A stretch of DNA of 64,000 bases from Oscillospiraceae bacterium (GTDB lineage: Bacteria > Bacillota > Clostridia > Oscillospirales > Oscillospiraceae), in assembly GCA_017861365.1 (NCBI GenBank), contig JAGFXR010000002.1, forward strand, positions 62,001 through 126,000, read 5' to 3'. Position 1 is the first letter of the stretch; each line of letters begins with the position of its first letter. Made by a program: the position numbers and the translations under genes. The notes below the pieces were generated by a model. It had not been told where the DNA came from and made no database searches. It worked only from the letters and a program-made list of their open reading frames with translations. Shown here one piece after another: positions 39,195 to 48,708 of the stretch.

Positions 39195-40868
39195 ATGACC
39201 TACACGGCATTGTCCCCTTGGGCGAAAAGCGGTTACCGGGAGAAATACCCCATCAACCCGCGGCTGGACACTCTGGATGGTAAAACCATCGGGCTTTATG
39301 CCTCTTTTAAAGAGTACCATCCCTTTTTCATGCAGGAAGTGGAACGGCAGCTGTATGCACGCTGGCCGGAAACGAAGTTCTCCCACTATACTTACATCGT
39401 CGATACCCAGGAGATTGACAAGGACTCGATAAATTTTCCCAGTTTCAAGCACTGGTTATCCGGTGTGGATGCCGTCGTGGGTGTTGGCGCCGACATGGGC
39501 TCCTGCGCGCTGTATATGGGTTATCTCTTCGCTCAGGTAGAGCGTCTGGGGAAGCCCGCGGTGCTTCTGAGCAAACAGCAGTACATATCCTCCGCCTCCA
39601 AAGGCGCGTCGGCCCGTTCCTATCCCGGCCTGCGCATCGTCACTTACGACGGTCCAGGTTTCGTTCCAAACGCAGTGGACTGCCGCCAATGGACCGTGGA
39701 CACTTATCGCGATAAGATCGCCGCCATGCTGGAGTCCATCGTGGATGCGCTAACGGTTCCGCTCAACGAGGAGGAGCAAAATCCTCAGCCGCCCCAGGAT
39801 TATTCAGAGATGACGTTCACCGGAACCCTGGAGGAAATCAATGACTGTTTCTATGAGCACGGATGGACCAACGGCACGCCGGTGGTGCCTCCCACGGAGG
39901 AAGCCGTGCTGGAAATGCTGAAGGGTACGGATTTGCCACGGGACTATGTTGTGGCGGAGCTGCCGCCGATGAACGGCAGAGCTACCGTAGAAAAAATCGC
40001 TGTTAACGGCGTGATGGCGGGCTGTCTCCCCACATATATGCCTCTGCTGATTGCCGCCGTGGAAGGTATGGCGGACGATATGATCAAGCTCGAGGGTTGG
40101 ACCTGCAGCAACGCCAGCTGGTCGCCTGTTGTCATTGTAAACGGCCCTATACGCGGCGAAATCGGCATCCATACCGGGCAGAATTTATTTTCACCCTATA
40201 CCAGACCCAGTGCCTGCATCGGAAGAGCGCTGGCTTATATGATTATGAATATCAGCGGCTGCCGTTCGCAGCTGGAGGATATGAGCGGCCCTGGCAACGA
40301 TAGCCGATTCGGTATCTGCGTTGCAGAGGATGAGGAACATTCCCCTTGGGGTCCTCTTCAGACCGATTTTGGCTTTTCTGCCGAAGATTCCACCGTGACC
40401 CTGTTCTGGCCCAGTGAACACACTCAGCTTCCCGCTGTCAACGTCAGCGCCACGCTGGATAAGCTTTGTTCCGTCTGGCACGGCGGCTTCGATGTGGGCG
40501 CCATGATCGTTTTGCCTCCCGAAAATGCGGCACTTTTTACCGCCGCGGGGTATAGTAAGGCAGATATTTTGAATTATATTCAGGCTTATAACCGACGCCC
40601 TTCCTCTCAAATCCCCCGCGCGGCTATTGGTAACAACCATCCCCGGAAGGGGCTGGTATTTCCGGCCCCCGGCTTGGCGCATTCCGCGCCTCTGTTCTGG
40701 AACACGGAGCACATGTTCGTCCTGGTCGGCGGCCAGGACTGGGGTACCGTCTACCTTGGAGGCGGAGACCACGGCGGGCCCTGCTGCAAGAAGGCGGTAC
40801 TGCCAAAGGCTTGGGGTGAGCTTTGCCGGAAATATCCCGGCGGTAAACCGCGGTATGCAGATTATTGA
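39195..40868 (+). CDS. UGSC-type protein with Met at the selenocysteine position, fused to a large C-terminal domain
   Basis: A 557-residue protein. Residues about 20-170 match the UGSC family: RLDTLDGKTIGL at the start and VVGVGADMGSC, where relatives have DUGSC or DCGSC, then ERLGKPAVLL. Here the redox residue is Met from a plain ATG codon, with one extra Ala before it, while GSC is kept. Residues about 205-557 form a second domain starting WTNGTPVVPPTEE and containing NGVMAGCLPTYMPL; I know it only as a partner of UGSC proteins. Function of the family is not established. Divergence from an enoate-type reductase suggests a shared pathway. Confidence 0.72.
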   Translation: MTYTALSPWAKSGYREKYPINPRLDTLDGKTIGLYASFKEYHPFFMQEVERQLYARWPETKFSHYTYIVDTQEIDKDSINFPSFKHWLSGVDAVVGVGADMGSCALYMGYLFAQVERLGKPAVLLSKQQYISSASKGASARSYPGLRIVTYDGPGFVPNAVDCRQWTVDTYRDKIAAMLESIVDALTVPLNEEEQNPQPPQDYSEMTFTGTLEEINDCFYEHGWTNGTPVVPPTEEAVLEMLKGTDLPRDYVVAELPPMNGRATVEKIAVNGVMAGCLPTYMPLLIAAVEGMADDMIKLEGWTCSNASWSPVVIVNGPIRGEIGIHTGQNLFSPYTRPSACIGRALAYMIMNISGCRSQLEDMSGPGNDSRFGICVAEDEEHSPWGPLQTDFGFSAEDSTVTLFWPSEHTQLPAVNVSATLDKLCSVWHGGFDVGAMIVLPPENAALFTAAGYSKADILNYIQAYNRRPSSQIPRAAIGNNHPRKGLVFPAPGLAHSAPLFWNTEHMFVLVGGQDWGTVYLGGGDHGGPCCKKAVLPKAWGELCRKYPGGKPRYADY

Positions 40869-40988: not shown

Positions 40989-41017
40989 TTGATTTGTACA
41001 ACAAAACAATTTATAAT
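40989..41017 (+). promoter_or_regulatory. Promoter of the two-component operon
   Basis: TTGATT at 40989-40994, a 17-base spacer and TATAAT at 41012-41017, about 58 bases before the response regulator start. Confidence 0.7.
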
Positions 41018-41074: not shown

Positions 41075-42178
41075 ATGCATAGTGCAATCATTGCAGATGA
41101 CGAGGATAAGATTTGTATGTTGATTCAAAAACTGGTAGATTGGGAGACGCTTGATATTCGCGTGGTGGGTGTCGCCAACAACGGAAACGATGCGTTCCAA
41201 ATGATTGAACGGTACCGACCGGATATTGTCATTACCGATATCCGAATGCCCGGACTGGACGGAATTCAGCTGGTGGAAAAAACAAGGAAGCTTGACATTG
41301 CGGCCAGCTTTGTGGTCATCAGTGGGTACAGGCAATTTGAGTACGCCCATCAGGCACTGAAGTTTGGAGTGGAGGACTATCTCCTCAAGCCCATCAAAAA
41401 AGATGAGCTGACAGCAACGCTGCAAAAAATTTGTGCTCGAAAGCAGTCGGAAGCGGAGCATCGAAAACAGGCAGAGGGTGAGCCGGGTATGCAGCCTGAT
41501 CAGGCTCCATTTAATTGCGTGCCTCTGGATGGCTATTTTACCAGCCAAAGAACCAATCAGCTCACCCGCGCGGTTGCCGCCCTGTCATTGGATTTCACCC
41601 AACGCATGATTGGGGAGGCCTTCGCCTGGGTGAGTATGCAGCCAAACGTCAGCTCTGTGACCTATTTCGCTGCGGCCGAGCGCCTTGCTTCCGTGATTGG
41701 AGCGGCGCTGGTTCGAGGCGGAATGCGGGCCGAACCGCCCGGGTTTCAGCAAATACCCGGGGTGACTGCCGCCGCAGGCAGCGACGTGCTCCGCAAAGCC
41801 CTTATGGATTGGGTGAAGGCGGAAATGACTCATGACGGGCTGGAGTACTCCAGACAGGAGCATCTGAGTATCCGTCAGGCGAGGCAGTATATAGCGGAGC
41901 ATTTTACCGAACCGCTCACGCTGGAAGAGGTTGCGGGTTTCGTCCATTTAAACGCCTACTATTTTTCCGCTGTGTTCAAACGGGAGCAGGGCGTCAATTT
42001 TAATTATTACATCATGAATTTGCGCATTGAGGCGGCAAAGGGCCTTTTACGCAAGAGCAATCTGAGCGTTTCGCAGGTCGCGGAGCAGGTTGGATACCGT
42101 GATATCAAATATTTTCGTAAAATATTTTTGCAGGAAGTCGGGATCAAACCTTCGGAATACCGCAGGCTTTACGCGTGA
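41075..42178 (+). CDS. YesN-type response regulator with AraC DNA-binding domain
   Basis: A 367-residue regulator. The receiver domain covers about residues 1-125; the phosphoacceptor Asp is in VITDIRMPG near residue 54 and the conserved Lys in LLKPIKK near 106. A linker of about 140 residues leads to a double helix-turn-helix at about 265-365 ending GIKPSEYRRLY. It is followed 9 bases later by its kinase gene. Probable targets are its own operon and the sugar-type ABC importer just downstream. Confidence 0.93.
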   Translation: MHSAIIADDEDKICMLIQKLVDWETLDIRVVGVANNGNDAFQMIERYRPDIVITDIRMPGLDGIQLVEKTRKLDIAASFVVISGYRQFEYAHQALKFGVEDYLLKPIKKDELTATLQKICARKQSEAEHRKQAEGEPGMQPDQAPFNCVPLDGYFTSQRTNQLTRAVAALSLDFTQRMIGEAFAWVSMQPNVSSVTYFAAAERLASVIGAALVRGGMRAEPPGFQQIPGVTAAAGSDVLRKALMDWVKAEMTHDGLEYSRQEHLSIRQARQYIAEHFTEPLTLEEVAGFVHLNAYYFSAVFKREQGVNFNYYIMNLRIEAAKGLLRKSNLSVSQVAEQVGYRDIKYFRKIFLQEVGIKPSEYRRLYA

Positions 42179-42187
42179 GGAAGAAGC

Positions 42188-43246
42188 ATGAAACAAACCG
42201 GTCTGAAAAAGATTGAACTGAAAACTATATTTGCAACCTGTTTTATTCTTCAAATTTTGCTTTGCGCCGCGATACTGGTTTTGTGTCTTGCCGAAAATGC
42301 ACACAGCCATCACCGGGTGACAATTGTATTGTCCATGCTGGTGTTACTCATTTCCCTTCTGATTTTGATGTTCTTTTTTCAGCGGATGCTGTGGCCGATG
42401 GACAGGATCGATGCAAAACTCAACCGAATTTGCGAGGAAATGCCCGGTGATCCGTTCTGGCAGGATATTGGCGGCGTTGACACCACCGGATATGTGCTGC
42501 GGCATATTGACGAGCTGTTCGAGCGTGTGAAAGCGCAGAGCGGCAGGGACTATCAGGCGGAGCTTTTGAACCGGCAGGCGGAATTTTCTGCGCTGCAAAG
42601 CCAGATTAATCCCCATTTTCTTTATAACACATTGGACTCGATCCGGGGGCAGGCGCTGATTGACGGCGCGGATGAAATTGCGGAAATGACCGAGGCGCTG
42701 TCTACCTTTTTCCGGTACAGCATCAGTCAAAAAGGAGCCATGGTGACGCTGGCGGAAGAAATCAAGAATGTAGAAAATTATTTCTTTATTCAGCAGTTTC
42801 GGTTCAGCAATCGGTTTGACTATTCCATTGTGGCGGAGGATCCGGCCGCTCTGAGCTACTATATTCCAAAGCTCACCCTTCAGCCCATTGTGGAAAACTC
42901 TATTTTTCACGGACTGGAAAGCAAACTCGAAAAAGGGCATATCGCGATCCGGGTTACCATGACGGAGAAACGGTTGCTGATTGATGTCACGGACGACGGC
43001 ATAGGCATGGACAAGGCCACACTGGAACATCTGCGCAGCTGTCTGGAGCGCGGGGTACCCACGGGACGTGGGCAGGGCAGACGCGGCACGGGAACTGCCG
43101 TCAGCAATGTCAATCAGCGTATCCGGCTTTTTTTTGGACCGGTTTACGGTGTTACCATTTCCTCCACTCCTCTGATCGGCACTAATGTGCAGGTAGTGAT
43201 TCCGCTGATCTCCGACCCCGCCCCGAAGGGAGGCACGCACGATTGA
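42188..43246 (+). CDS. YesM-type sensor histidine kinase without an extracellular domain
   Basis: A 352-residue kinase with two membrane segments (about residues 13-34 and 45-66) joined by roughly ten residues, so there is almost no extracellular sensor. The His_kinase domain has LQSQINPHFLYNTLDSIRG near residue 140 and an HATPase domain from about 225 (VENSIFHG, DDGIGMD, GTGTAVSNV). Most YesM kinases have a large outer domain; this one must sense within the membrane or through a partner. Its stop overlaps the start of the degenerate ABC gene. Confidence 0.92.
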   Translation: MKQTGLKKIELKTIFATCFILQILLCAAILVLCLAENAHSHHRVTIVLSMLVLLISLLILMFFFQRMLWPMDRIDAKLNRICEEMPGDPFWQDIGGVDTTGYVLRHIDELFERVKAQSGRDYQAELLNRQAEFSALQSQINPHFLYNTLDSIRGQALIDGADEIAEMTEALSTFFRYSISQKGAMVTLAEEIKNVENYFFIQQFRFSNRFDYSIVAEDPAALSYYIPKLTLQPIVENSIFHGLESKLEKGHIAIRVTMTEKRLLIDVTDDGIGMDKATLEHLRSCLERGVPTGRGQGRRGTGTAVSNVNQRIRLFFGPVYGVTISSTPLIGTNVQVVIPLISDPAPKGGTHD

Positions 43247-44730
43247 GAGAGGAACTGCTCCGCATGGAGCGCGTGGTCTGCATCAGCGGAAGCAAGGTTA
43301 GCTTAGATCGGTTTCACCTCAATATTTATAAAGGAGAGGTTGTCGTGGTGATGGGCACCCACGACGCAGGCCAGCAGATGCTCGTGGATCTCCTCTCCGG
43401 CGGCGCGCAGCCGGACCGGGGACGGATTCTCTTTGAAGAGGAAGCCATATCATTATCCAATATGGATGAAGCGCGCGCGGCTGGTATCTACAGTGTCCTT
43501 CAGGGCAGCCGTCTGGTCCCCGACCTGACTGTGGCGGAAAATATTTTCGTCATCCGCCGCAGCAGACGTCATCACGGTATCATATCCCACCGGGTGATGG
43601 AGCGGCAGACAAAACGGATTTTAGATTCCGTCGGCATGGAGATAGCGCCTGATACGCCTGCCCGTCATTTGACGGTGGCTGACCAGCATTTGATTGAGAT
43701 TACAAAGGCTATGACCATGGGGGCAAAGCTGATTATCAATGATGATCTCCGCATTCCCTATACCCATCGCGAGATGGAGCGCCTCCACAGAATGGTGCGG
43801 CAGTACGTGAGCCAGGGCGTGTCCTTTCTGATTGTAACCAGCCACAATGACGAATCCAGCAATATTTTTTCAATCGCAGACCGGGTTGTCGTGATTCGGG
43901 ATGGTCAAAATGTGGGGGAGCTTCGTCAAAGCGACTATAATCCCACGCTGCTGACCAATCTGGTGGTGGGAAGAGAGTTTCATTTTGCGCCCCGAAAGCG
44001 GATGGACGCTCACGCCGGTGAGGTGCTCCGGGTATCGAACTTGTGCGGACAGGGGCTATATCGCGCTTCTTTTTCCGTACACGCGGGAGAGATTGTGGGA
44101 CTGCTTGATCTGGCGGGACATGCCAATCAGGAGGTGGTGGATATTCTGACCGGTTACGCCGGAGAGGATTCGGGAACGGTTTTGCTGGGCGGTCAGCAAG
44201 TCCATTTTTCCGGCCTGGGAGAAGCCATTGCGGGCGGCGTGGGCTTTGTTCCGGCACTTCCTGTCGGCCTGCAGCTTCCGGACTGTATGTCCGCCGCGGA
44301 AAATCTGTCGCTCATCCTTCTGCGGAGAAAAAAACATCCGCCGCTGCTTAAGCTGCGGAAACGGTCGGATTTTTTGTTGCAGGATAATCTGGAGTTGCTG
44401 GGGCTTCCGGGGGACGCCGTGGACTGCCCCATTCATGAGCTGCCCGCCGCCGTGCGGCTGAGACTGTTATACCTGCGGTGGATTCTGGGGAAATGCCGTC
44501 TTTTGATCTGCGTCAAACCCAGCACCGCGCTGGATGTTATGCTCCGCGACGTGGCGCAGTCCATGCTGGACCGCGCCGCGCAATCGGGGATGGCAGTGCT
44601 GGTGGTTTCCGCCGACCCTGCCGAGGTTGCCTCCGTGTGTGACCGAATCGCAATCTTCTCCGGTGGTCAGATTAAGTGCATTTTGCCCAGAAGTGAATTT
44701 ATTGAAGCGGATCTTTCTGTTTATTCTTAA
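43243..44730 (+). CDS. Degenerate double ABC ATPase (sugar-importer type), probably regulatory
   Basis: A 495-residue protein with the two-domain shape of RbsA/MglA but with both ATP sites damaged. Domain one has GTHDAGQQM where Walker A (GxxGxGKST) should be, LTVADQHL instead of LSGGQQ, and LIINDDL instead of LMDEPT. Domain two has DLAGHANQE, HELPAAVRL and LLICVKPSTALDV at the same places. The reading frame is intact. The start is TTG at 43243, overlapping the kinase stop, with GGGAGG 9 bases upstream; ATG at 43264 is an alternative. A terminator separates it from the real importer. I infer a signalling role linking importer and kinase rather than transport. Confidence 0.85.
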   Translation: MREELLRMERVVCISGSKVSLDRFHLNIYKGEVVVVMGTHDAGQQMLVDLLSGGAQPDRGRILFEEEAISLSNMDEARAAGIYSVLQGSRLVPDLTVAENIFVIRRSRRHHGIISHRVMERQTKRILDSVGMEIAPDTPARHLTVADQHLIEITKAMTMGAKLIINDDLRIPYTHREMERLHRMVRQYVSQGVSFLIVTSHNDESSNIFSIADRVVVIRDGQNVGELRQSDYNPTLLTNLVVGREFHFAPRKRMDAHAGEVLRVSNLCGQGLYRASFSVHAGEIVGLLDLAGHANQEVVDILTGYAGEDSGTVLLGGQQVHFSGLGEAIAGGVGFVPALPVGLQLPDCMSAAENLSLILLRRKKHPPLLKLRKRSDFLLQDNLELLGLPGDAVDCPIHELPAAVRLRLLYLRWILGKCRLLICVKPSTALDVMLRDVAQSMLDRAAQSGMAVLVVSADPAEVASVCDRIAIFSGGQIKCILPRSEFIEADLSVYS

Positions 44731-44766
44731 TAATTAAAAAGATCTTAAAAATGACCTCCCTTTCAT

Positions 44767-44799
44767 AAAACACTCTCCTTGTTCTGGGAGAGTGTTTTT
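44767..44799 (+). terminator. Terminator ending the two-component operon
   Basis: Arms 44767-44778 and 44787-44798 pair perfectly over 12 bp and end in TTTTT. Confidence 0.88.
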
Positions 44800-44807
44800 C
44801 ATATAAT
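44779..44807 (+). promoter_or_regulatory. Promoter overlapping the terminator
   Basis: TATAAT at 44802-44807 with TTGTTC at 44779-44784, 17 bases apart. The -35 box lies in the terminator loop, so the importer operon starts afresh immediately after the regulatory operon ends. The weak -35 fits a promoter that needs an activator such as the YesN-type regulator. Confidence 0.5.
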
Positions 44808-44857: not shown

Positions 44858-46045
44858 ATGAAAAAATTAGCATCCATCCTCCTGACCCTTGCGATGATCC
44901 TTTCCCTTGGCGCGCTGAGCGCTTGCACCAATCCGAGCGAAACATCCACCAGCACCGCCTCCGGCAGTGATACTGCTTCCTCCGGCAGTGATACCGCAGC
45001 CACCCAGACCAATGATATCCAGGCCCGTCTGGATAAAGGAGAAGAAGTCTTTATCGGGTTTGCCATGGAGACGGTTTCCAACTCCTTTTTCCTCCAGCAG
45101 GCGGATTTCCTGAAGGAGAACTTTGAGAAAATGGGCGTTACCTTTGAGTATGTTGCCTCGGAAGGCGACAACGCGCTGATGATTTCTCAGATTGAAAACT
45201 TTATCACCATGGGCGCTGACCTGATTATGTGCGCGCCTCCCTCCGCCGACGCGGTTCAGGATGTTCTGCTGAAGGCTGAGGCTGCGGGTATCCCCGTAAT
45301 TATGATGGGCCAGCACCCGTCCTATGCAGATCAGATCTCCGGCGGTACTTATCTGGACTGGACTCAGGTTGGTACTGAGGTGGCCGACATGGTCAGCGCC
45401 TGGATTACTTCCCGCTATCCTGACGCCAAGGACGGTGAAATTCATGCCGCGATTCTGACCAGCAACAGCCAGGGAGTCTATGTTCAGCAGAATGAAGGAA
45501 TGTATGCCGAGCTAGCCAAGGATTCCCGCATCAATATTGCGTATAAAAATGAAGGTGTCGACTCGATCGATGAAGGCTATACCGCGGCGCAGGAAGCCCT
45601 CACCATGGATCCTGAGATTAAAGTTTTCATCGGTTTCCAGGAGAGCCCCGCCATTGGAGCTTCCAACTATGTGATTTCCCGCTCTGATTTGAATCCGGAT
45701 GAGTTCGGCGCATTTGCCGCGGGACTGCAGGATATGGGCACTCAGCAGCTGGAGCTGGCCAAGGACGGACAGAGCATTTATCGCGGAACGATCGCTTACG
45801 GTACTTACGGTGCCGATGATGTTGAAATCCCCTCCGCGGCCGGCCTGTTTTATGTGACCCGGGACGTACTGCTGGGCACAGCGCAGGAAATGCCGTACTG
45901 GTCCGCGGACGACAACTGGTCGATCAATAATTTTGACTATTCGTTCGTACTAGACAATCCCCTCAACGACTTCCTCATTGATTTGTATGCCAATACATCC
46001 GATACGTCCGCGGCTTCCGACACTTCGGCCAGCTCCGCCGGTTAA
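44858..46045 (+). CDS. Sugar-type ABC transporter substrate-binding lipoprotein
   Basis: A 395-residue type I (RbsB-like) solute-binding protein. The lipoprotein signal ends at Cys23 (LGALSAC), followed by a Ser/Thr linker rich in repeats to about residue 50, then FIGFAMETVSNSFFLQQADF and a two-lobe fold. A second Ser/Thr/Ala tail closes the protein. It is longer than classic RbsB. Ligand unknown: a sugar, autoinducer or nucleoside-like compound are all possible. Confidence 0.9.
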   Translation: MKKLASILLTLAMILSLGALSACTNPSETSTSTASGSDTASSGSDTAATQTNDIQARLDKGEEVFIGFAMETVSNSFFLQQADFLKENFEKMGVTFEYVASEGDNALMISQIENFITMGADLIMCAPPSADAVQDVLLKAEAAGIPVIMMGQHPSYADQISGGTYLDWTQVGTEVADMVSAWITSRYPDAKDGEIHAAILTSNSQGVYVQQNEGMYAELAKDSRINIAYKNEGVDSIDEGYTAAQEALTMDPEIKVFIGFQESPAIGASNYVISRSDLNPDEFGAFAAGLQDMGTQQLELAKDGQSIYRGTIAYGTYGADDVEIPSAAGLFYVTRDVLLGTAQEMPYWSADDNWSINNFDYSFVLDNPLNDFLIDLYANTSDTSAASDTSASSAG

Positions 46046-46157: not shown

Positions 46158-47642
46158 ATGGAAGAAAACCGGCCCATTTTGTCCATGGAACATATTACAA
46201 AAACCTATCCCGGCGTCATTGCGTTGAACAATGTCTCCGTTTCTTTTGCCCGCGGGGAGATTCATGCGCTGGTAGGCGAGAACGGCGCGGGTAAGTCTAC
46301 ACTGATTAAAATTATCACCGGCGCGGTGGAACCGGACAATGGAATCATTCGCTTCGATGAAAAAGAGTTTTCAAAAATGCATCCGAATGAAGCTCGGAAA
46401 ATGGGGATCGAGGCAATTTATCAGGAGTATAATCTGATTGATTGCCTCAGTGCCGCGGAAAATATTTGCCTGGGCAAAAAAATGGGACGTTTTGTGAATC
46501 AGCAGGCGATGGCGGCGGTGGCAAAAGAGATTTTTGAACGGTTTCATATCAATATCGACCCGCGCACGCCGGTATCCGATCTGACCAGCGCGAAGATGCA
46601 GATCGTAGAAATCGCCAAAGCGGTTTCGAAGGGGGCGCGGTTGCTGATTATGGACGAGCCGACCGCTCCGCTTACCGTATCAGAGATTGACATTCTCATG
46701 GATATCATTGCACAGCTGAAAGCGGATGGCGTAACCATTCTCTATATTTCCCACCGTATGGATGAGATTTTCCGCATCGCGGATCGTGTATCCGTGTTCC
46801 GGGATGGACAGTATGTGGTGACGCGTCAGGTTTGCGACACCAACCGCGCCCAGCTGATTGCGGATATGGTTGGACGCACGCTGAGCGAGTCCTATCCCAA
46901 ACGGAAGAACGCACCGGGCGACGTGGCGATTGAGTTGAGAAATCTCACCGGAAACGGCGTTAAAAATATCTCGTTTTCAGCCAGGAAAGGCGAGGTTGTG
47001 GGGTTGGCCGGACTGGTGGGGGCGGGGCGCTCCGAAATTATGAAGGTTGTCTATGGCGCGGAGAAAAAACAGTGGGGAGAAATTTATATTAACGGGACTC
47101 CTGCCGAGATCAGATGCCCCAGAGACGCCATGAAATACGGAATCGGCCTGGTGCCGGAGGACCGTAAGCGGGAAGGCTGTTTTCTGATGGAGAGTATTCA
47201 ATGGAATATTCTGATTTCAAATGTAGAAAATATTTCCCGCGCTTCTGTTGTGGATATCGGAAAAGAAAAGAAGATCGCGTCGGAATATCGCGAGCGGCTT
47301 CGCATCAGAACCCCGTCCATCCAGCAAAAGGTGCTCAATCTTTCCGGCGGAAATCAGCAAAAAGTAGTCATTGCCAAAGCGCTGGCCGCAAATACCGATA
47401 TCATCATCTTTGACGAGCCCACCCGAGGCATTGATGTCGGCGCGAAGCATGAAATATATGAGCTGATGAACGACTTGTGCGCGGAGGGAAAATGTATCAT
47501 CATGGTTACCTCCGATATGGAGGAATTGTTGGGCATGTCCGACCGCATTGTGGTTCTTCATGAACGGGAGATGAGCGGTGAAATCAGCCGGGAAGAATTC
47601 TCTCAGGAGCGCGTATTGGATTTGGCCTCCGGCGGCGATTAA
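46158..47642 (+). CDS. Sugar-type ABC transporter ATPase (RbsA/MglA-like)
   Basis: A 494-residue double ATPase. Domain one is intact (GENGAGKSTLIK near residue 40, LLIMDEPTAPLT near 165); domain two has the usual variant GLVGAGRSE, then LSGGNQQKV and IIFDEPTRGIDVG. The ATG at 46158 follows GAGGTGA. It is the functional counterpart of the degenerate protein encoded at 43243. Confidence 0.95.
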   Translation: MEENRPILSMEHITKTYPGVIALNNVSVSFARGEIHALVGENGAGKSTLIKIITGAVEPDNGIIRFDEKEFSKMHPNEARKMGIEAIYQEYNLIDCLSAAENICLGKKMGRFVNQQAMAAVAKEIFERFHINIDPRTPVSDLTSAKMQIVEIAKAVSKGARLLIMDEPTAPLTVSEIDILMDIIAQLKADGVTILYISHRMDEIFRIADRVSVFRDGQYVVTRQVCDTNRAQLIADMVGRTLSESYPKRKNAPGDVAIELRNLTGNGVKNISFSARKGEVVGLAGLVGAGRSEIMKVVYGAEKKQWGEIYINGTPAEIRCPRDAMKYGIGLVPEDRKREGCFLMESIQWNILISNVENISRASVVDIGKEKKIASEYRERLRIRTPSIQQKVLNLSGGNQQKVVIAKALAANTDIIIFDEPTRGIDVGAKHEIYELMNDLCAEGKCIIMVTSDMEELLGMSDRIVVLHEREMSGEISREEFSQERVLDLASGGD

Positions 47643-47670: not shown

Positions 47671-48708
47671 ATGATGGATAAACAAGCGATGGGCGCAGAC
47701 AAATGGTCCCGCTTTTTCAAAGATTATTTTATGTATGTCGTTCTAATTATTCTGGTTGTATTTTTCTCTGTCCGGTCCCAGAATTTTCTGACGCCCTCTA
47801 ACCTTTTGAATGTCGTCAACCAATCTGCTTACCAGATTGTCGTTGGTGTCGGCATTGCCTTTATCATGCTGTCAGGCGCCATTGACCTGTCCACAGGCTA
47901 CCAGATTTCCACACTAAGTGTAATCGCCGGTGTTTTGCTGACCAAAACCTCCATTCCTTATGGATGGGTGATCGCGGTCATTCTGGTTCTCGGTGTGCTG
48001 CTCTCACTGGTAAACGGTGTTCTCTATGTGACCTTTGATACCTTCCCCTTTATGATCACACTGGCAACGCAGTATATTCTCTGGGGTATCTCCTTCATGA
48101 TTTCCAATTCCGCCACCTTCACACCGCTCCCGGCGGGATTTAAAATGCTGGGTCAGGGCTATATCGGCCCCATTCCCATCGCCATTTTAATCATGGTGAT
48201 TATTGTGATCATAGGCGCGTTCCTGCTCAATAAAACCTATTTTGGACGCTATGTATACGGTCTGGGCAGCAATCAGACCGCAATTGAGCTGGCAGGTGTC
48301 AAAACACGCCGTTTAAAGCTCATTATTTTTGCTATGGCGGGACTCTTTACCGCGCTGGGCACCATCATGCTGGTCTCCCGTTCCGGCTCCTCCTCCTCCA
48401 CGATGGGCCCCGGCATGGAGTTCACCATCATCGCTGGCTGTATGCTGGGCGGTATCAAAATGGGCGGCGGCGGCGGAAAGATTTCCAGCGTGGTCATTGG
48501 TCTGCTCATTCTGACGGTTTTGTCTAACGGTATGCAGCTCATGCAGCTTGGAACCTATCCTCAGAAGATTGCCCTGGGCATTGTTCTGCTGGTTGCCATC
48601 GGTCTGGATGTATTTCAGTCCAAGACAGCGCTTAAAACCGCAAAGAAGGTTGCCGGAGAGCCTCCGGCCAAGGCGGACAAGAAGGATTCAACCCTGTCCT
48701 CCCGTTGA
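47671..48708 (+). CDS. Sugar-type ABC transporter permease (RbsC-like)
   Basis: A 345-residue permease with about ten membrane segments. The GVGIAFIMLSGAIDLSTG motif near residue 65 and GLGSNQTAIELAGV near 195 are typical of RbsC. A charged tail of about 30 residues follows the last segment. Last gene of the importer operon; only one permease gene is present, implying a homodimer. Confidence 0.93.
   Translation: MMDKQAMGADKWSRFFKDYFMYVVLIILVVFFSVRSQNFLTPSNLLNVVNQSAYQIVVGVGIAFIMLSGAIDLSTGYQISTLSVIAGVLLTKTSIPYGWVIAVILVLGVLLSLVNGVLYVTFDTFPFMITLATQYILWGISFMISNSATFTPLPAGFKMLGQGYIGPIPIAILIMVIIVIIGAFLLNKTYFGRYVYGLGSNQTAIELAGVKTRRLKLIIFAMAGLFTALGTIMLVSRSGSSSSTMGPGMEFTIIAGCMLGGIKMGGGGGKISSVVIGLLILTVLSNGMQLMQLGTYPQKIALGIVLLVAIGLDVFQSKTALKTAKKVAGEPPAKADKKDSTLSSR

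Follow-up and report, generated by a model that had tools for sequence, protein, structure and literature searches.

In a 64,000-nucleotide stretch of contig JAGFXR010000002.1 from an Oscillospiraceae bacterium (assembly GCA_017861365.1, positions 62,001 to 126,000), referred to below as the window, the gene at 43243 to 44730 on the plus strand encodes an RbsA-like tandem ATP-binding cassette (ABC) protein that is degenerate in both halves. This protein, designated the pseudo-ATPase, is almost certainly a conserved, catalytically dead signaling member of a two-component module. On balance, it would relay the state of a neighboring sugar importer, or of the permease of that importer, to a histidine kinase. 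The gene is the third of six between 41075 and 48708, all on the plus strand, which encode a response regulator, the kinase, the pseudo-ATPase, and the binding protein, intact RbsA and RbsC of the importer. Comparison of these sequences with those of relatives supports a conserved dead family, its partnership with a kinase, the lack of a sensor in that kinase and a conserved operator at the importer.

Loss of the ATP site in the window protein

The frame of 495 codons, which begins with TTG, is open throughout. Its product matched NCBIfam AraG nearly end to end (E 2.6e-69) at 234 bits, far under the curated cut-off of 689, and the Pfam ABC_tran match (4.2e-18) covered the first half only. Two fused nucleotide-binding domains (NBDs) of the RbsA/AraG kind are present, as judged from family matches and an AlphaFold model. 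Motifs were read from an alignment to the intact RbsA encoded at 46158 to 47642, to which the pseudo-ATPase is 25% identical. In the first half, Walker A1 is GTHDAGQQM (GENGAGKST in RbsA) and Walker B1 is INDDL (IMDEP), where the Asp column keeps D and the Glu column has become D; the H-loop column holds S instead of H, and a His is found one column later. In the second half, Walker A2 is DLAGHANQE (GLVGAGRSE), signature 2 is LPAAVRL (LSGGNQQ) and Walker B2 is CVKPSTALD (FDEPTRGID). No complete composite ATP site, consisting of Walker A1, Walker B1, H-loop and signature 2, is left.

The original prediction, made from the letters of the window, was that Walker A, signature and Walker B are altered in both halves of an intact frame, and the open codons and the RbsA alignment confirm it. 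Note, however, that Walker A2 and signature 1 are off-consensus in the intact RbsA as well, with R at the place of the Walker A2 Lys in 38 of 38 intact rows, and that one site of Bacillus subtilis RbsA and NupO is described as likewise degenerate in passages of PMC11466899. Since an intact RbsA has just one good composite site, the point here is the loss of that site too. The pseudo-ATPase therefore shares with RbsA and NupO the fold, the tandem NBDs and a degenerate site already found in intact members, and differs from RbsA in having lost the one complete composite site that RbsA keeps.

The kinase stop and the pseudo-ATPase start overlap in ATTGA. Relatives open with the same MxxE[IV]LR stretch, which supports the TTG start, and the predicted coupling to the histidine kinase gene thus holds. 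A separate RbsA-like group (L004, L020, L033, L034 and L037; G, L and C numbers are our own handles) has an intact first half and a Walker B2 without Asp or Glu (VYP, AYP, SQP, AYA). It resembles B. subtilis NupO as described, and one copy is present in the genome of the window (G000:C22).

Recurrence and gene neighborhood

Including the window, 25 pseudo-ATPase loci are known (24 further loci). Both halves are broken in all 24 full-length members; the copy in G446 ends at a contig edge after 169 amino acids and is broken up to Walker B1, as far as it is readable. In searches with the single protein, intact RbsAs scored nearly as high, and all fetched matches were intact RbsA by pattern except those of the window and G040; the family was separated only by two-row and four-row alignments. 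In a class sample of 391 genomes, 13 genomes gave a match of E 1e-117 or better, the best remaining match being 3e-88. Walker A1 and B1 patterns were kept in all 17 lower-scoring proteins fetched from this sample. G911 (E 3e-86) was rejected as a member and is uncounted, being an intact RbsA. The other members are G040, five from a phylum sample of 398 and two from ten genomes of the family of G1140, and G446 and three divergent members (G699, G567 and G494) were found via their kinases. The value of 13 in 391 is a lower bound, since these divergent members score below intact RbsA. In a named collection of 80 loci, mostly from Streptomyces, 81 of 81 ABC rows besides that of the window keep the Walker A1 and B1 patterns.

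The pseudo-ATPase and kinase searches each used 391 class genomes, taken as the same draw. A short kinase occurs in each of the 13 genomes that carry a core-family pseudo-ATPase, and each of the 14 genomes that carry a core short kinase has a pseudo-ATPase, one of which is cut by a contig end. Upstream sequence is available for 24 loci, all but G1184, which begins at a contig edge. In 22 of these the kinase gene directly precedes the pseudo-ATPase gene on the same strand, and the gap between the two is −38 to +33 nucleotides (nt) in 18 cassettes. The importer is downstream of the pseudo-ATPase gene in 20 of the 25 loci and on the other side of the module in G567 and G494; the loci of G446 and G519 stop at the edge of their contigs, and the copy of G749 is the one that has moved. 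Degenerate motifs do recur beside YesM/YesN genes, as would be expected from the original prediction: they are found at 24 other loci, nearly all of which adjoin such genes, and intact motifs are absent from all 22 copies that immediately follow a kinase gene (the G446 copy being readable to Walker B1).

In G749, the pseudo-ATPase gene (L181:8115-9569) sits between ileS and an M42 peptidase gene, and a cassette on another contig (L234:6334-12809) contains regulator, kinase, RbsA, RbsC, binding protein and operator without a pseudo-ATPase. The contig with the pseudo-ATPase belongs to the genome, as its IleRS is 82–83% identical to the full-length IleRS of three genus mates. The M42 gene is directly after ileS in G699, an M42-like gene is one gene further on in G590, and another gene is found in G685. 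The gene thus moved and was retained.

In G459 (L184:12573-16929), MMSDH, IolB/KduI-family, transaldolase-type and TIM-barrel isomerase-like genes are located before the module, and in G487 and G514 the genes before it match these in size. These genes are of the inositol-catabolism type, which suggests inositol as the sugar sensed and imported in that group.

Motif loss, selection and phylogeny

Motif counts were made on 22 aligned pseudo-ATPases. The Walker B2 Asp is kept in none of them, its column being V, I or M in 18, and the Walker B2 Glu column is Q or K in 17 and E in one. Neither glycine column of signature 2 holds G in any copy. The H-loop column never holds His, which is found one column later in 15 copies. 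Two copies, including that of the window, keep the Walker B1 Asp, and all 22 have the D-loop Asp.

Ratios of nonsynonymous to synonymous substitution rates (dN/dS), computed with our own Nei-Gojobori script, were 0.064, 0.119, 0.141, 0.127, 0.180 and 0.044 for six close pairs of relatives; saturation precluded a value for a seventh. These relatives are thus under purifying selection. Constraint is somewhat weaker than on regulator and kinase, the values of which were lower in five of the six, but the ratios for the pseudo-ATPase are far below 1. A quick maximum-likelihood tree with 68 rows placed all 22 pseudo-ATPases on one side of a branch with a Shimodaira–Hasegawa-like approximate likelihood-ratio (SH-aLRT) value of 98; the divergent ones drew long-branch warnings. 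The contig-cut RbsA of G665 was omitted from the tree and the motif tables. The cognate importer RbsAs of 15 members form one clade. For the window, G567, G699 and G494, the nearest intact RbsA falls outside this clade. The genes for regulator, kinase and pseudo-ATPase thus remain associated, whereas the importer can be exchanged.

A kinase without an outside sensor

The YesM-type kinase of the window (42188 to 43246, plus strand, 352 amino acids; Pfam His_kinase, PF06580, 2.3e-28 and HATPase_c 6.1e-11) has transmembrane (TM) helices at residues 14–32 and 46–64 by hydropathy, separated by a short loop, and no extracytoplasmic domain. H143 and N237 are invariant across 19 aligned kinases. Member kinases, taken from the first 19 member genomes and from G699, G567, G494, G446, G1185 and G578, are frames of 332–394 amino acids with two TM helices 3–17 residues apart ahead of the His box, also by hydropathy; some were called at a slightly lower threshold, and the G040 kinase gave three adjoining TM calls. 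In 14 member genomes, 14 of 101 PF06580 frames are shorter than 400 amino acids and the remaining 87 are 439–768 amino acids long. Thirteen of the short frames adjoin a pseudo-ATPase gene, and the other is the kinase of the G749 cassette. The window kinase is the only PF06580 kinase found in its genome (74% completeness).

For comparison, 30 genomes without a core pseudo-ATPase, chosen among the class-sample matches and therefore RbsA-rich, gave 105 PF06580 matches, from which 14 short frames (229–425 amino acids) were fetched. Among these 14 there was no untruncated two-helix kinase with a tiny loop, and no pseudo-ATPase was among their listed neighbors. They are soluble, multi-helix or truncated kinases, those of L267, L268 and L269 being truncated or cut by a contig end. 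Three further short fragments (G467 twice, G477:C124) lie outside this comparison. Long-frame kinase matches (447–660 amino acids; G567, G597 twice, G630, G723 and G578) had no pseudo-ATPase in the flanks examined.

Conservation pattern and predicted structure

The best conserved segments of intact RbsA are Walker A1, signature 2 and Walker B2. From RbsA to the pseudo-ATPases, conservation falls from the 100th to the 45th percentile for Walker A1 and from the 100th to the 25th for signature 2, and it rises from the 66th to the 99th for the segment after the first Q-loop and from the 19th to the 74th for that after the second. In ABC importers, these post-Q-loop segments are on the side of the permease. 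The most conserved stretch of the pseudo-ATPases is the family-specific N-terminus MxxE[IV]LR. For columns at least 90% conserved in RbsA, the mean fraction kept is 0.25 in nucleotide motifs (43 columns) versus 0.48 elsewhere (51 columns; Mann-Whitney p 0.001).

The AlphaFold model, built from an alignment made up mostly of intact RbsA (27 rows), has a full tandem ABC fold with a mean predicted local distance difference test score (pLDDT) of 80.7 and a predicted template modeling score (pTM) of 0.69. In the PDB it best matches component A2 of a methyl-coenzyme M reductase activation complex and chain D of the Mycobacterium Opp and Dpp importers. PDB sequence searches gave distant matches only, or none at a strict threshold.

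Control sites and other genes of the locus

A conserved direct-repeat operator with a period of about 21 nt, presumed to be the site of the regulator, is located at 44739 to 44782 (plus strand). Its form is about TTCNAAA and then a run of C, every 21 nt, followed by a −10-like box seen by eye. Scored with a matrix built without this site, the window operator ranks first of 127,914 positions (15.1 versus 8.3 for the next non-overlapping one). When 16 gaps were searched for motifs, the log-likelihood reached 347, as against 202–213 for shuffles, a comparison that favors the real set somewhat due to the fewer restarts of the shuffles (2 of 2000 steps versus 12 of 3000). The near-identical G126, G992, G487, G514 and G665 were dropped before motif discovery, and the operator matrix leaves out G530, G699, G567 and G519. 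With leave-site-out matrices the operator took the top rank in 12 of 12 core loci, among them the G749 cassette, from which the pseudo-ATPase is missing. The best matches in G530 (score 16.4) and G519 (score 23.1) overlap with the pseudo-ATPase gene at its end.

A hairpin followed by T at 44769 to 44796 (plus strand, 10 of 11 pairs; a shorter version in a separate scan) had been read as a terminator that cuts the module off from the importer. The hairpin exists, but it overlaps the operator and a promoter-like TTGTTC-17-TATAAT (44779 to 44807, plus strand; found by eye, unlisted by the consensus scan), the −35 box of which overlaps the operator end, and its role as an isolating terminator was rejected. 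A strict scan, which leaves out imperfect hairpins such as one in G1164, found terminator-like hairpins in 4 of 17 gaps (16 gaps after pseudo-ATPase genes and the G749 cassette). Because the conserved operator is in front of the importer, the regulator of the module very likely controls the importer, and presumably it does so by binding the direct repeats, as judged from their position and form. In G126, the gap between pseudo-ATPase and RbsA (L067:7232-7894) is 661 nt, versus 263 nt in the near-identical G058, and its extra repeated stretches look inserted upstream of the operator.

The regulator and importer genes are all on the plus strand. The YesN-type response regulator (41075 to 42178, 367 amino acids) consists of a receiver and an AraC-type helix-turn-helix (Pfam Response_reg 7e-25, HTH_AraC 1.2e-19, HTH_18 6.3e-18). 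A promoter for the operon of regulator, kinase and pseudo-ATPase is predicted at 40989 to 41017 (TTGATT-17-TATAAT, plus strand, 10 of 12 matches) by the consensus scan only. The importer genes encode a sugar-binding protein (44858 to 46045, Pfam Peripla_BP_4 3.6e-26), the RbsA-type tandem ATPase (46158 to 47642, NCBIfam AraG 8.7e-164, with intact motifs) and an RbsC-type permease (47671 to 48708, Pfam BPD_transp_2 1.4e-22). Upstream of the operon, the gene at 39195 to 40868 encodes a 557-amino-acid protein with a UGSC family match (Pfam 9.3e-11) confined to its first third.

Discussion

We propose that a dead RbsA paralogue would act as a dedicated signaling subunit of a two-component system. 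The regulator, the sensor-less kinase and the pseudo-ATPase would be produced together from one operon. The pseudo-ATPase would take the place of RbsA on a dimer of the RbsC-type permease and would convey to the two-helix kinase the state of the permease, namely whether a sugar-loaded binding protein is docked on it. Once activated, the kinase would phosphorylate the regulator, which would bind the direct repeats before the importer and turn the importer on. Conservation after the Q-loops, together with a kinase unable to sense the outside alone, favors a protein that ties the kinase to the permease. A stricter form, in which binding protein, RbsC dimer and dead RbsA make up a non-transporting sugar receptor of the sensor-less YesM kinase, is put forward tentatively and with slightly more doubt than belief. 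Physical docking on RbsC, which the original prediction also envisaged, or on the kinase, we infer from sequence patterns; taken as a whole, that earlier interpretation is partly supported.

Several observations weigh against this proposal. The Walker A1 lysine is kept in 10 of 22 copies and the Walker B1 Glu in 5 of 22; given these residues and the shifted His, some members may retain residual nucleotide binding. The Walker B1, Walker B2 and H-loop segments are still at the 88th, 92nd and 85th percentiles of conservation, with their letters altered. Docking leaves this unexplained, and those segments may still do something. Conservation after the Q-loops may reflect folding rather than docking, and the AlphaFold model is biased towards the RbsA fold by the intact rows in its alignment. 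The dN/dS figures are those of relatives, the window copy being without a close one. In G494 the pseudo-ATPase gene is convergent to its kinase gene, and operator scans of the G699 and G567 loci found none. The main result against a strict rule that such proteins are always dead is G578, in which a half-degenerate tandem ABC protein (L263:3800-5470, G578:C13) is encoded immediately before the genes for a YesN regulator and a YesM kinase with two helices. It has a family-like start (MKREVLGL) and keeps Walker A1, Walker B1, the H-loop, a lysine in Walker A2 and Walker B2, whereas the Q-loop glutamine and signature 2 (here LNNAALT) are lost. This protein may resemble an ancestral state, or it may be a case of its own. 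The absence of intact homologues stands for the position downstream of the kinase, G578 being a partial counter-example placed upstream of the regulator.

The pseudo-ATPase could instead be a cytoplasmic partner of the kinase only, a scaffold or gate, perhaps with intracellular sugar or nucleotide sensing, that never sits on a permease. In 22 of the 24 loci that could be assessed, its gene comes right after that of the kinase, and the gene remains with those of kinase and regulator across changes of importer lineage; the family-specific N-terminus is the most conserved stretch of the protein, and no second permease was recognized in the listed cassettes. We consider this explanation unlikely, since both post-Q-loop segments and both NBD folds are kept, for which a pure kinase ligand has no obvious need. 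An inhibitory or competing importer subunit, which would replace RbsA to throttle transport and whose place in the operon would only set its amount, would account for the retained fold and post-Q segments and for the importer downstream in 20 of 25 loci (two more, G446 and G519, ending at a contig edge). It would leave unexplained both the missing sensor domain of the kinases and the close coupling to the kinase gene, at −38 to +33 nt, and is improbable. That the protein is a still working ATPase with unusual motifs is very improbable: the Walker A1 lysine in 10 of 22 copies, the universal D-loop Asp, the His one column past the H-loop column in 15 copies and the motifs retained in G578 are set against the loss of the Walker B2 Asp and both signature-2 glycines in 22 of 22 copies and of the Walker B1 Asp in 20 of these, though not in the window copy. 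A decaying duplicate of the neighboring RbsA, to which the pseudo-ATPase is homologous at 25% identity, can be dismissed for the family in view of the open frame, replacements common to the family, dN/dS of 0.04–0.18 in relatives, a position in the tree apart from the local RbsAs and retention after the relocation in G749.

The proposed relay to the kinase can be compared with known systems. For the UhpC-UhpB-UhpA system of Escherichia coli, passages of PMC7607045 describe UhpC as a transporter homologue (about 30% identical) that works with the membrane kinase UhpB to induce the true transporter, in the gene order uhpA-uhpB-uhpC-uhpT, i.e. regulator, kinase, paralogue, transporter. The pseudo-ATPase is likewise a paralogue of a component of the regulated transporter and is encoded with regulator and kinase. 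UhpC, however, is a ligand-sensing membrane protein of the major facilitator superfamily, whereas the pseudo-ATPase is a cytoplasmic ABC subunit, blind on its own to an outside ligand. In the B. subtilis BceAB-BceS module, as outlined in parts of PMC10314905 and PMC7828314, a sensor-less kinase with two TM helices gets its signal via an ABC transporter. BceAB depends on the hydrolysis of ATP, and BceB carries a large loop outside the cell; the present module instead combines a dead ATPase with a sugar importer. BceS belongs to a kinase type other than YesM; the window kinase is of the YesM type (PF06580), and the neighboring permease is of the RbsC type (BPD_transp_2) and not of the BceAB type. 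CuaD-CuaS-CuaR and XylFII-LytS are three-component controls of sugar importers, cuaDSR adjoining importer genes (passages of PMC10384115). As third component they have a binding protein, which acts on a large extracytoplasmic domain of the kinase. The window kinase, in contrast, is without that domain, and the third component is a cytoplasmic pseudo-ATPase. Each of these systems shares one side of the design, and none is described with a dead ABC ATPase in the passages cited. Among the matches listed from open-access PMC, no title or abstract opening describes such a protein.

To our knowledge, many YesM/YesN systems have no known input. If the proposal is true, one class of them would have a testable input, consisting of a sensor-less kinase and a pseudo-ATPase borrowed from the importer that it controls, and an ABC motor subunit would have a pseudoenzyme role in two-component signaling. 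If the strict receptor form is true, an ABC importer would have become a transmembrane receptor through replacement of its motor by a pseudo-ATPase, and this would be a recurrent three-gene signaling module across many families of the phylum of the window. Annotators could drop the label "transporter ATPase" for these genes, and the modules could point to the sugars that are sensed.

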